Shown here piece by piece: positions 33,090 through 36,850 of a stretch of 36,850 nucleotides of DNA. Source of the DNA: an uncultured bacterium (GTDB taxonomy: Bacteria; Bacteroidota; Rhodothermia; Rhodothermales; UBA10348). Within the stretch, counting starts at the first letter, position 1. Each line of letters opens with the position of its first letter. The position numbers and the translations under genes are program-made. The notes beneath the pieces were generated by a model, which worked only from the letters and a program-made list of their open reading frames with translations, was not told the origin of the DNA and did no database searches. The stretch lies in contig CALSQR010000002.1 in the NCBI GenBank assembly GCA_943788505.1, positions 1,308,161-1,345,010 of the forward strand, given 5' to 3'.

Positions 33090-33404
33090 TTAGTGATCGT
33101 GGTTGATCGTGTCGGGAAGTCTAGTAGCTGGAAGGTGGTTTTCTAGTGGCGTTTTTAGGTATACACCAGTCTGAAGATCTTGCGTCGAGACGAGTTGGTC
33201 GAATTGGAACTTGATCCAATCAGTTATGCGTGAGTCCGGAAGAAAACCCATACCGTCTGAGCGGTAATCTAATCCCTCCAGTACCTCTGCGTACGGGCCG
33301 AAACCATGCAAGCGAAAAGGTATGACGAGCACTGTCCTGCCCGCCTGAACTTCTTTCTGGATGTGGGTACGAATCCGCTCTTCGGCTTCTTCTCGCTTGC
33401 CTGT
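33090..33404 (-). pseudogene. C-terminal remainder of the CbiX-like gene after an in-frame amber codon
   Basis: This stretch is in the same frame as the gene above it (33405-34019) and continues its second CbiX lobe: TGKREEAEERIRTHIQKEV, VLVIPFRLHGFGPYAEVLEGLDYRSDG and a C-terminal RITDWIKFQFDQL. It is separated only by a single TAG at 33405-33407. A GTG at 33332 could start an 80-aa piece, but that would lack the rest of the lobe. It is best read as the tail of an interrupted gene of about 309 codons. Confidence 0.75.
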
Positions 33405-34019
33405 CTAGTCTTCTCGCAGTGTTTCCACCTGGACCGAATGGAAGGGGAGCACGGCGCGAACAGAATCAGCCATCCGGTCCATTCTTTGAAGCCATCGTTC
33501 GTTTTCTTCGTCGCTCCCAGGTCCATGCCCGATGATAAAAACGGATTCACTTCTCGGATGCATCGAAAGCACCTTGGCACGATCTTTTAAAACGCCCCCT
33601 AGAGATACTATGTCCATGAGTCCCTCTGAACTGAGTGAGACAGGGACCGATAGGTTTATGGGTCTAGGTTCATGCATATAGTGACCGTCGGGGGCTTGGT
33701 CACTCAAACTGAATGCATATTCCGTCTCTGCAAGGAAAGAGTCGCCAGAGATAAAAAGCCGTACGACATGGATTTCGGAAACGCCGGAATCAACCAGCTC
33801 GTCTGCGGCTTCCTGCAGCGTTTCAGGATTTGCCATGCCAAATGCAACAGCAACCGGATGATGAGCCGTCAACGGCATTACAGCATCTAGGACCGCCTCA
33901 TTCCACTCTTCGCTTCCGCCATGTGCCATGACGAGAAGACCTGGTCTATGCGTGATGTCTTGAGCCTTGGCGGAAAAGGAAAGTGCCAGAAGTGCTAAAA
34001 TGAGCTGGAAACGAATCAT
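33405..34019 (-). CDS. CbiX/SirB-like chelatase-family protein, exported, cut by an amber stop
   Basis: A 204-aa product with a Sec signal peptide (ending about SAKAQ) and a class II chelatase-like fold. The first lobe starts LLVMAHGGSEEWNEAV (His33 as likely metal ligand) and continues to DSFLAETEYAF; the second starts FIIGHGPGSDEENERWLQRM, again with a histidine, and is truncated after VQVETLRED by TAG. CbiX/SirB proteins insert Co or Fe into sirohydrochlorin, but they are cytoplasmic; this exported version may bind metal or a tetrapyrrole in the periplasm. Upstream lies a 10-bp-arm inverted repeat at 34033-34057, placed like an operator. Confidence 0.75.
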   Translation of the reverse strand: MIRFQLILALLALSFSAKAQDITHRPGLLVMAHGGSEEWNEAVLDAVMPLTAHHPVAVAFGMANPETLQEAADELVDSGVSEIHVVRLFISGDSFLAETEYAFSLSDQAPDGHYMHEPRPINLSVPVSLSSEGLMDIVSLGGVLKDRAKVLSMHPRSESVFIIGHGPGSDEENERWLQRMDRMADSVRAVLPFHSVQVETLRED

Positions 34020-34032
34020 TGGGTCGAATATG

Positions 34033-34057
34033 CTTATTTAGACTTAATCTAAATAAG
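34033..34057. promoter_or_regulatory. Perfect inverted repeat, likely metalloregulator operator
   Basis: CTTATTTAGA (34033-34042) and TCTAAATAAG (34048-34057) are exact complements around CTTAA. It starts 14 bp upstream of the ATG of the CbiX-like gene, where it would overlap its promoter. The symmetrical TTTAG...CTAAA core resembles sites of DtxR-type iron or manganese repressors; the regulator is not in the window, so this is inference. Confidence 0.55.
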
Positions 34058-34159
34058 AGAAGGCAAGGAAATTGAAGAATTTGCTTTGAAAGGAGGGCAA
34101 TAGTGGCATGACGACTCCTCTTTCAACGTCTTTAGATTGCATTTTGATAGGGGAAACGG

Positions 34160-34188
34160 TTGATACGCCGCTTTTTTTGACCTAGAAT
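34160..34188 (+). promoter_or_regulatory. Sigma-70-type promoter of the DUF305 gene
   Basis: TTGATA (34160-34165) and TAGAAT (34183-34188) are separated by exactly 17 bp. The predicted transcript starts about 50 bp before the DUF305 ATG at 34245. The -35 hexamer is the same as in the promoter at 2767. Confidence 0.5.
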
Positions 34189-34244
34189 AGTTTTCTCCCC
34201 AGAATCAGTTCGCATTCACCACCTCCGAGAAATCTGAACTGCTC

Positions 34245-34928
34245 ATGATATCCAGAATATTCCTGGCTACCGCGCTCCTACTTTTGAGCGCTTGTGCCGG
34301 AACCGAAACGATAACTGATCCACAAGCTGGCTCTTCGTCTGATATGGACATGTCCGAAATGGAAGAACTGTTCAATCAACGACAGGAGGAGGCTAGAAGT
34401 CGTTATTCTCAGGCGGATGTGGACTTTATGTCCGGTATGATCGGCCACCATGCGCAGGCGCTTATTATGTCTGAGCTGTCTGAAGAAGCCGGCGCAAGTG
34501 GTCCGATCAGAATCCTGACAGCCCGTATTATCAATGCTCAGAAAGATGAGATTGCCACCATGCAGAAGTGGCTCGAAGACCGAGGACAGCCCGTCCCTCA
34601 GGTTCACATCGATGGTCTGAACCTTATGGTTCATGGCGCCGAAAGTGACCATATGGATCACACTAACATGCCGGGAATGTTGTCGAAAGAGCAGCTGGAA
34701 GAATTAGCTTCAGCCAAAGGAGCTGACTTTGATCGCCTCTTTCTTACTTACATGATTCAGCATCATGAAGGGGCGACATCCATGGTGGATATGCTCTTCA
34801 AAACTGACGGCGCCGGAAACGACGAGTTGTCATTCAAGATTGCTTCCGACATCAATGTCGATCAACTAACAGAAATTGCCCGGATGGAATTGATGCTAGA
34901 AGAGATGAAATCTACCGGACAGAATTAG
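34245..34928 (+). CDS. DUF305 domain lipoprotein (putative metal-binding)
   Basis: A 227-aa protein with a lipoprotein signal (LLLLSACAG, Cys17). The mature part holds two four-helix units each with the DUF305 hallmark: FMSGMIGHHAQALIMSELSEEAG and FLTYMIQHHEGATSMVDMLF. The M-I-x-H-H-x-x-A histidines and many methionines (DMDMSEMEE, MDHTNMPGM) suggest binding of copper or another soft metal; CopM in cyanobacteria is a copper-binding relative. It is divergent from the CbiX-like gene and 105 bp upstream of the LVIVD gene. Confidence 0.88.
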   Translation: MISRIFLATALLLLSACAGTETITDPQAGSSSDMDMSEMEELFNQRQEEARSRYSQADVDFMSGMIGHHAQALIMSELSEEAGASGPIRILTARIINAQKDEIATMQKWLEDRGQPVPQVHIDGLNLMVHGAESDHMDHTNMPGMLSKEQLEELASAKGADFDRLFLTYMIQHHEGATSMVDMLFKTDGAGNDELSFKIASDINVDQLTEIARMELMLEEMKSTGQN

Positions 34929-35033: not shown

Positions 35034-36850
35034 ATGAAAGGCTCTGTTTCTACCGCCCGATGCTTCCTGTGCAATGTCACGGGGATGCTTTGGTCGCTTT
35101 TTGCTTTGGCCATCATAACCGGCATGACCGGTTGTGCGCCACAGCCGATGGCCGACACCTCCATGTCCAGCACCTCCATGCCGACGTCATCTGCGATGAT
35201 GTCGACTGAGGCACCCTCTCCCGACCCTCGCGTTGGTCTCGGAGCAGGTCTTTTTGATGCCGAAGAGGCTATCTGGAATCTAAACAAACTGTCAACCACC
35301 CCTCCGTCCGAGCCGTTTGTTGGTGTGACAAGCTCGGATTTGGCCTTTAAAGGCAACTACGTTTTTCAGGGTAACTACAACGGAGTTATGATCTGGGACG
35401 TATCAAATCCATCTATGCCTGTGCTGGTTAAGGATTATGTTTGTCCTGCCTCCCAGAGTGACGTTTCGGTCTATGGAGATCTCATGTTCGTCTCAGGTGA
35501 AGGCACAAGTGGTCGTCTCGACTGTGGTGACCAGGGTGTGGACGAAGCGGTTAGTGCAGAACGCCTCCGCGGTATCAGGATTTTTGATATCTCAGACATC
35601 CGTGAACCCAAGTACATCCACAATGTCCAGACCTGCCGCGGATCGCACACGCATTCCGTACTGAAGGATCCGGATGTTGATGACACCATCTGGATTTATG
35701 TATCCGGTTCATCTAGTGTTCGCTCAGAAGAAGAATTGCCAGGATGTTCAGCGATGGCTCCATCAGAAGATCCTAATTCTGCTCTCTTCCGCATTGAAGT
35801 CATTCGCGTTCCCTTGGATGCACCGGAAACGGCTGAGATCGTGAGCTCACCGCGGATCTTTGAAGATCTTGTTGCTCCTCCGCAGCATGGCATGTCTCCG
35901 GCAGACCTTCGGGTTATTGAGGAAGCGAAAGCCAATGGAGCTTTTGTGGCAGACATCTTCGGTCAAGAGCGCATTCTTTCTGGACGTATGCTAAGTATGG
36001 TTATGACACCATTCATGGAGTCCCGCGGTGGTGGCGAACCCAATGCAGCCGATAGTGCTGCATTCCGCGAGGCGCTTCCTGAAATCATTGCAGCTCAGTT
36101 CGGTAACCGAAACCGGCCTGAGAGCGATGGCCCAGCGCCAGGTCCAACCCAGTGCCATGACATCACACTCTACCCTGAAATTGGAATGGCCGGTGGTGCA
36201 TGCGGTGGATATGGTCTCCTGCTTGACATCAACGATCCGGAAAACCCATTCCGCATGGATGCAGCAGCCGACTCCAACTTTTCGTACTGGCATTCAGCGA
36301 CGTTCAGCAATGATGGCTCGAAAATGCTGTTTACGGATGAGTGGGGAGGCGGTGGCCAGCCCAAATGCCGTGAAGACGATCCGAAAGAGTGGGGTGCCAA
36401 CGCGCACTTCACGATTGAGGATGGCAAGCTGACTTTCGAGTCATATTGGAAACTTCCGGCACCTCAGACGAACATCGAAAACTGTGTTGCCCACAACGGG
36501 TCAATGATTCCGATCCCCGGTCGCGAAGTGTTCGTGCAGTCCTGGTACCAAGGTGGTATTTCTGTCTATGACTGGACAGATATCAACAACCCACATGAAA
36601 TTGGCTTCCATGACCGCGGACCGTCTGATGCAGAGACGCAGGGTCCAGGTGGCAGCTGGTCGGTGTACTGGTATAATGGTTTGATCGTTAGCTCCGAAAT
36701 CGCCCGCGGCCTCGATATTTTCGAGCTCAAGCCAAGCGGATTTATTTCTGAAAACGAGATCGCAGCGGCCAAAACAGTGCAATTGGATTATCTCAACGCA
36801 CAGGGACAGCCGATGTACTATTGGCCGACCACGTTTGCTCTTGCACAGTC
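35034..36850 (+). CDS. LVIVD-repeat lipoprotein (3' partial)
   Basis: ATG at 35034 opens a frame with no stop to the window end (at least 605 codons). It begins MKGSVSTARCFLCNVTGML, has a hydrophobic stretch and the lipobox GMTGC, then a Met/Ser/Thr-rich linker. Blades of the LVIVD type follow: SDLAFKGNYVFQGNYNGVMI, VYGDLMFVSGEG with IFDISDIREPKYIH, then ARGLDIFELKPSGF near the end. Long parts share the style of surface propeller proteins of unknown function, with many cysteines. It follows the DUF305 gene on the same strand and may be cotranscribed. Short minus-strand ORFs inside it are shadows. Confidence 0.82.
   Translation, partial: MKGSVSTARCFLCNVTGMLWSLFALAIITGMTGCAPQPMADTSMSSTSMPTSSAMMSTEAPSPDPRVGLGAGLFDAEEAIWNLNKLSTTPPSEPFVGVTSSDLAFKGNYVFQGNYNGVMIWDVSNPSMPVLVKDYVCPASQSDVSVYGDLMFVSGEGTSGRLDCGDQGVDEAVSAERLRGIRIFDISDIREPKYIHNVQTCRGSHTHSVLKDPDVDDTIWIYVSGSSSVRSEEELPGCSAMAPSEDPNSALFRIEVIRVPLDAPETAEIVSSPRIFEDLVAPPQHGMSPADLRVIEEAKANGAFVADIFGQERILSGRMLSMVMTPFMESRGGGEPNAADSAAFREALPEIIAAQFGNRNRPESDGPAPGPTQCHDITLYPEIGMAGGACGGYGLLLDINDPENPFRMDAAADSNFSYWHSATFSNDGSKMLFTDEWGGGGQPKCREDDPKEWGANAHFTIEDGKLTFESYWKLPAPQTNIENCVAHNGSMIPIPGREVFVQSWYQGGISVYDWTDINNPHEIGFHDRGPSDAETQGPGGSWSVYWYNGLIVSSEIARGLDIFELKPSGFISENEIAAAKTVQLDYLNAQGQPMYYWPTTFALAQ

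Follow-up and report, generated by a model that had tools for sequence, protein, structure and literature searches.

A 25-bp inverted repeat lying directly before a gene for an exported CbiX-like protein is very probably a Fur operator of the Bacteroidota type, bound by the single FUR-family regulator of the genome. The repeat lies in a window of 36,850 nucleotides, the whole stretch of DNA that was analysed, from an uncultured member of the Rhodothermales, and its conservation between genomes marks it as a real regulatory site. When iron is present Fur would bind the 7-1-7 box TTAGANT-N-ANTCTAA, which directly precedes the start codon of cbiX, and by sitting on the palindrome would block transcription of cbiX, with the box released again once iron becomes scarce. 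The genes feoAB and suf would be under the same Fur, whose targets in relatives would be TonB-dependent receptors, iron-type binding proteins and FTR1 permeases. We infer that the Fur of Rhodothermales binds the box and that binding represses cbiX. A Fur operator is well supported here and is an ordinary kind of switch, the better lead being that proteins of the exported CbiX family may serve to acquire iron under the control of Fur.

The first-pass annotation described perfect 10-bp arms around five bases and this is what the sequence holds, with arms CTTATTTAGA (34033-34042) and TCTAAATAAG (34048-34057) on either side of the spacer CTTAA (Table 1). Inside the repeat is the 7-1-7 core TTAGACT-T-AATCTAA (34038-34052), and this core is identical letter for letter in two congeners, the middle bases excepted. 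Only 13 nt separate the repeat from the start codon of cbiX (minus strand, A of the ATG at 34019), whereas 187 nt separate it from the start codon of the DUF305 gene (34245, plus strand), thus by position the repeat belongs to cbiX. By a rough estimate from arm length and spacer about 0.035 such repeats are expected in the window, and a single 10-nt palindrome is by itself unremarkable. The significance of the repeat lies in the recurrence of its pattern, not in the palindrome alone.

Table 1. Features around the inverted repeat, and gene types adjoining the 113 sites read in Rhodothermales genomes
Feature	Position or number of sites	Strand	Basis or remark
Exported CbiX-like gene, proposed target	33405..34019	-	PF01903, 22.6 bits (cut-off 22)
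25-bp inverted repeat, proposed Fur operator	34033..34057	.	Recurrence and Fur-box layout
Sigma70-like promoter match TTGATA-17-TAGAAT, could serve DUF305	34160..34188	+	Consensus match only
Divergent DUF305 gene, lipoprotein-like, a doubtful target	34245..34928	+	PF03713, 136 bits
TonB-dependent receptors	32 of 113 sites		2 with HmuY-like gene
FeoA/FeoB	19 of 113 sites		
Iron-type binding proteins	14 of 113 sites		
CbiX	12 of 113 sites		3 with DUF305, 1 with FTR1
Suf	11 of 113 sites		
Cytochrome-FTR1	3 of 113 sites		
DUF4856	3 of 113 sites		
ABM heme-oxygenase-like gene	1 of 113 sites		

Recurrence was assessed with the 23-bp pattern TTATTTAGA-N5-TCTAAATAA, in which 18 bases are scored and the five middle bases are free, and the control was the reversed pattern, which is palindromic to the same degree. 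Within the 2.75-Mb genome that contains the window there are three occurrences at up to two mismatches, two of them with none, and no occurrence of the reversed pattern; at up to three mismatches there are still three, against one for the control. The other mismatch-free copy is upstream of feoA-feoA-feoB and the copy with two mismatches has sufB (with C and D) on one side and a sufA-like gene on the other, the feo and suf names in this genome being assigned from translations without a family search. A metal-responsive operator before an exported chelatase-like gene had been proposed for the repeat at the outset, a proposal staked on a genome scan for other copies near metal genes. That scan has brought out two more sites at iron genes of the same genome, and since these further copies precede feo and suf the proposal is strengthened.

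The pattern was then sought in 60 genomes, namely that of the window, 26 others of its family and 33 others of the order (G and L numbers below are our labels for genomes and loci). At up to two mismatches there are 131 occurrences in 53 of the 60 genomes, while the reversed pattern gives 6. This comparison bears on whether the repeat could be an RNA hairpin in the cbiX leader, or a chance palindrome. In its RNA form the repeat would make a 10-bp stem of -7.4 kcal/mol, and a lone palindrome of 10 nt is not very improbable. However, the reversed pattern pairs equally well, therefore 6 against 131 means that the letters matter beyond pairing, and the hairpin is rejected. The box moreover recurs before genes of one pathway, and the scan of the region found no terminator-like site, so that hairpin and chance together are an extremely improbable explanation.

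From these occurrences 113 distinct sites were read, further sites of several genomes being left out. A site was classed where a match to a reference protein (named by Pfam, by NCBIfam or by us) lay within 450 bp and pointed away from the site. As a Fur box should, the box lies where promoters of genes for iron uptake are expected: beside feo and suf in the window's own genome, and with 95 of the 113 sites adjoining reference gene types, nearly all of iron or heme, and 18 unclassified, although this is a grouping and no independent test because the references were drawn from the same loci. The binding proteins beside the box presumably carry iron, although the NCBIfam models that they match, weakly, are for other substrates. 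Proteins with DUF4856 adjoin the box in several genomes (L017, L051, L293), a position that suggests an iron-related role for them.

Seven genomes are without the 18-base pattern (G035, G032, G059, G030, G037, G056 and G018). In three of these, G032, G059 and G030, a 14-base match with one mismatch precedes genes of the receptor, feo or DUF4856 types, and G037 has one 14-base match in an ambiguous gene context. No box was found in G056 and G018 in either the 18-base or the 14-base scan, nor in G035 (99% complete) at two mismatches of 18 or one of 14. Taken over the order as a whole, the box points to an iron regulon common to the Rhodothermales.

The layout of the site is also that of a known family. 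Whilst the five middle bases were left free in the pattern they are biased among the 113 sites, with position 10 being a pyrimidine (C or T) in 85% and G in none, position 11 being T in 75% and the centre base random. Therefore the site can be written as TTAGANT-N-ANTCTAA, a palindrome with the 7-1-7 layout of Fur-family boxes; the conservation of the arm letters is partly by construction, as the sites were chosen by mismatches in the arms. The half-sites of this palindrome equal those of the Fur box of Riemerella anatipestifer, also of the Bacteroidota. In the results of the first Riemerella paper the box is ATTTAGAATTATTCTAAAT and four promoters were gel-shifted by Fur, with whole promoters used in the gel shifts; the same paper gives the box as the E. 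coli consensus GATAATGATAATCATTATC in its abstract and as the TTTAGA type in its results and discussion (PMC5609570). In the second a fragment of the rhuB promoter holding ATTTAGAATTATCCTAAAT is bound by Riemerella Fur with a Kd of 4.3 nM, and loss of fur raises the rhuB transcript by a factor of more than 20 (PMC10986502).

The likeness covers the half-sites TTTAGA..TCTAAA, the 7-1-7 spacing and the placing of the box before TonB receptors and heme uptake genes, at about 100 bp or less from start codons. The Rhodothermales box differs in that its middle bases are freer (C or T, then T, then any), its arms extend to TTATTTAGA..TCTAAATAA and its putative regulon has feo, suf and cbiX. The match of half-sites is the strongest single argument for a Fur operator, and it makes the Rhodothermales site an already known kind of operator. 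More distant relatives are the PerR box TTATAATNATTATAA and the delta-proteobacterial Fur box WTGAAAATNATTTTCAW, both as quoted in the accessible part of PMC545781. These share the 7-1-7 palindromic layout of the FUR family, and the PerR box shares a T at the second half-site place, but in both the half-site letters differ from TTAGANT; the targets of the Rhodothermales box are, in contrast to PerR, iron uptake genes. The available part of PMC10434189 contains no box, and in that of PMC2772861 the TTTAGA letters are primers. A literature search, with subscription journals mostly outside its scope, brought up no study of a regulon under DtxR or Fur in Rhodothermus, Salinibacter or the Rhodothermales.

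A gene of the FUR family is found in 56 of the 60 genomes, including all 44 with a completeness of 90% or more and a contamination of 5% or less, hence the protein that a Fur box calls for is encoded in box-carrying genomes. The genome of the window has one copy. G056, one of the genomes without a box, has both FUR and DtxR. The main FUR sequence was read for 40 of the 56 genomes and in all 40 there is a Glu at the sensing-site place. The residue at this place is Glu in Fur and Asp in PerR, a subject with which work by Parent in 2013 is reportedly concerned, so the residue in these proteins is Fur-like and not PerR-like, a further difference from the PerR system. All 40 also have Asn after the motif T[VI]Y, a place which we take to be that of the residue treated by Caux-Thang in 2015; a second FUR copy in G022 has Arg there.

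Bacteria of other phyla have a related box, TTGAGANTNANTCTCAA, which departs from the Rhodothermales box by a single symmetric replacement of T by G. When up to 3 of its 14 positions were allowed to mismatch, it was found at a distance of no more than 300 bp in 21 of 66 cbiX loci of other phyla, with 0.25 sites expected from base shuffles over all 79 cbiX loci examined. A scan upstream of cbiX with the E. coli-type Fur consensus stayed at background level for Rhodothermales, and the same scan brought out the TTGAGA boxes of the other phyla. In all 17 outgroup genomes with TTGAGANTNANTCTCAA whose FUR was read, a reading that left out L139, L147, L169 and L172 among the loci bearing it, the best-scoring FUR has Arg after T[VI]Y. 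Thirteen further outgroup paralogues were read, with Lys in 5, Arg in 5 and Asn in 3, two weak matches standing outside this count. The contrast of Asn and Arg between the two box types is suggestive but no proof, because it represents one step between clades and not many independent events. It is as if cbiX were under Fur in several phyla. The outgroup box is seen upstream of exported CbiX homologues in Planctomycetota, Gemmatimonadota and others (L125, L136, L158, L160, L165, L178, L180).

The regulator first suggested for the repeat was of another family, a DtxR/MntR-type repressor, which with bound Fe2+ or Mn2+ would repress iron genes, and with the feo and suf copies in hand this was also our initial reading. 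The letters TTAG...CTAA do resemble DtxR and IdeR sites. A DtxR-family gene is present in the genome, as had been guessed, and with an orthologue in 57 of the 60 genomes DtxR is about as widespread as FUR (56 of 60). The closest solved relative of this DtxR is 8pvt, called an iron-dependent repressor, and the best NCBIfam model for the gene is an MntR (231 bits, below the cut-off of 350). G035 is without both DtxR and the box, yet has a FUR with Asn, a combination that fits DtxR better than Fur. However, the operator of a DtxR-family protein should be accompanied by its regulator wherever the site is kept, and in G014 (99% complete) neither a DtxR orthologue nor PF02742 was found, FUR is present and two sites are kept, one before a TonB receptor and one before a cytochrome-FTR1 gene. 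G009 (70% complete) and G013 (78%) also carry sites and their DtxR is distant (31-32% identity). Against DtxR are further the Fur-like layout of the box and of the outgroup boxes, the half-sites equal to those of the Riemerella Fur box in the available texts (PMC5609570, PMC10986502), and dtxR itself, near which no box was found at up to 4 mismatches in 30 loci. On G014, the 7-1-7 layout, the outgroup boxes and Riemerella the DtxR reading was dropped as quite improbable, and beyond the presence of the gene nothing was found that ties it to the repeat. A wrong guess at the regulator is thereby replaced by a testable one, Fur. The DtxR-family regulator itself (L006, 4466-5176), found in 57 of the 60 genomes, stands without link to the box.

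Another metal or Fe-S regulator might bind the repeat, for example an Rrf2-family protein of the IscR/RirA-like kind. There are two Rrf2 genes in the genome of the window, and suf genes are common targets of IscR/RirA-like Rrf2 proteins. This explanation is very improbable in view of the targets of the box, which are mostly genes of iron and heme uptake, and of its layout, which is that of Fur boxes. In Riemerella, published work shows Fur to bind promoters that contain a box of this type (PMC5609570, PMC10986502). Autoregulation was also considered and rejected for all of these regulators, as no box at up to 4 mismatches was found near dtxR (30 genomes) or, in the window's genome, in the locus of fur or of either Rrf2 gene.

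Whichever genes the putative Fur operator serves elsewhere, its proposed target here is cbiX. The copy in the window reads for 204 codons up to an in-frame TAG (33405-33407). Beyond this stop the frame (33090-33404, running to 33090) still resembles the C-terminal part of full-length relatives, so that this cbiX is either shortened or affected by an assembly error; copies without the stop exist in congeners. Full-length relatives have about 300 residues and, by eye, a start like a signal peptide. The predicted fold of one full-length homologue (L113, pLDDT 90.2) matches in Foldseek SirB, a periplasmic CbiK, coproporphyrin ferrochelatase and P. gingivalis FetB, with an E of 2.6e-07 and a TM by target of up to 0.70 for SirB. 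This is the fold of class II chelatases, and PF01903 is found in 23 of 27 members of the family. H33 and H165 are invariant in the 27 sequences and are candidates for the two catalytic histidines of such chelatases. The likeness to SirB, CbiK and FetB thus lies in a fold shared with a modelled homologue; the differences are an identity of 12-16% in those matches, the signal-peptide-like start (by eye) and a motif of its own, LRED, which is invariant in the 27 sequences and followed by W in nearly all.

In a survey of cbiX in GTDB genomes the best 80 of 142 loci were read, several of the records being the same genomes as in the 60-genome scan. Fourteen of the 80 are from Rhodothermales or other Bacteroidota (L114 included), 13 of them with upstream sequence, and in 10 of the 13 the box is directly upstream of cbiX (with 2 mismatches in 14 in L115). 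In two others, both from MAGs of Rhodothermus sp., the box precedes a TonB receptor, which is followed by a HmuY-like gene and cbiX; in L129 (1179-4864) this is a tight operon with a box of 1 mismatch in 14, and in L119 (from 1201) the box has 2 in 14. The remaining locus of the 13, L120, has no box. The arrangement in L129 and L119 is a heme-uptake link for exported CbiX. Within about 4 kb either side, the best 80 of 142 loci have a TonB-receptor match in 34, HmuY in 2 and FeoB in 2. Among 25 cbiX loci with an upstream receptor, most of which are Proteobacteria to judge from their titles, a TTGAGA-type site with no more than 3 mismatches lies before or around the receptor start in 7, where shuffles give 0.1 expected, with two of the 7 being identical in sequence and the site of L130 lying far upstream.

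From such neighbourhoods we infer a role of exported CbiX in iron or heme uptake. A possible reading, which we would rate at a little less than an even chance, is that several phyla use exported CbiX-like proteins, under Fur, as a conserved and hitherto unassigned component of how they acquire iron. Each would be a class II chelatase of the periplasm or the surface. The TonB receptor and HmuY-like hemophore encoded nearby would supply it with heme or some other tetrapyrrole, from which it would remove the iron and pass Fe2+ to FeoAB or FTR1. In their available parts PMC10100974 and PMC13227078 deal with the CobN-like HmuS, which is distinct from the exported CbiX family. What is gained beyond the operator is a pair of useful by-products, the order-wide regulon with a usable Fur-box pattern for the Rhodothermales, and a widespread exported chelatase-like protein tied to iron control in several phyla, with which the question of how such bacteria get iron from heme becomes directly testable.

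The part played by the divergent neighbour is less certain. The first-pass annotation placed the DUF305 gene in the same metal-responsive island, and that the gene is a co-target of the repeat is doubtful. There are two promoter-like matches in 33900-34400 (the second overlapping the first, at 34177-34205), with 0.5 expected. The island claim is weakened by the distances, about 100 bp from the repeat to the DUF305-side promoter match and 187 nt to the start codon; what stands is the gene order, as CbiX, box, DUF305 and LVIVD follow each other in two congeners (L076, L081), in which the distance from box to DUF305 is about 86 bp with start codons placed by eye. The DUF305 protein scores 83.9 bits against the NCBIfam model of CopM, below its cut-off of 90. 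After DUF305 comes a gene with LVIVD repeats (35034-36848), which runs off the window at the contig end, and this pair of genes is kept in the two congeners.
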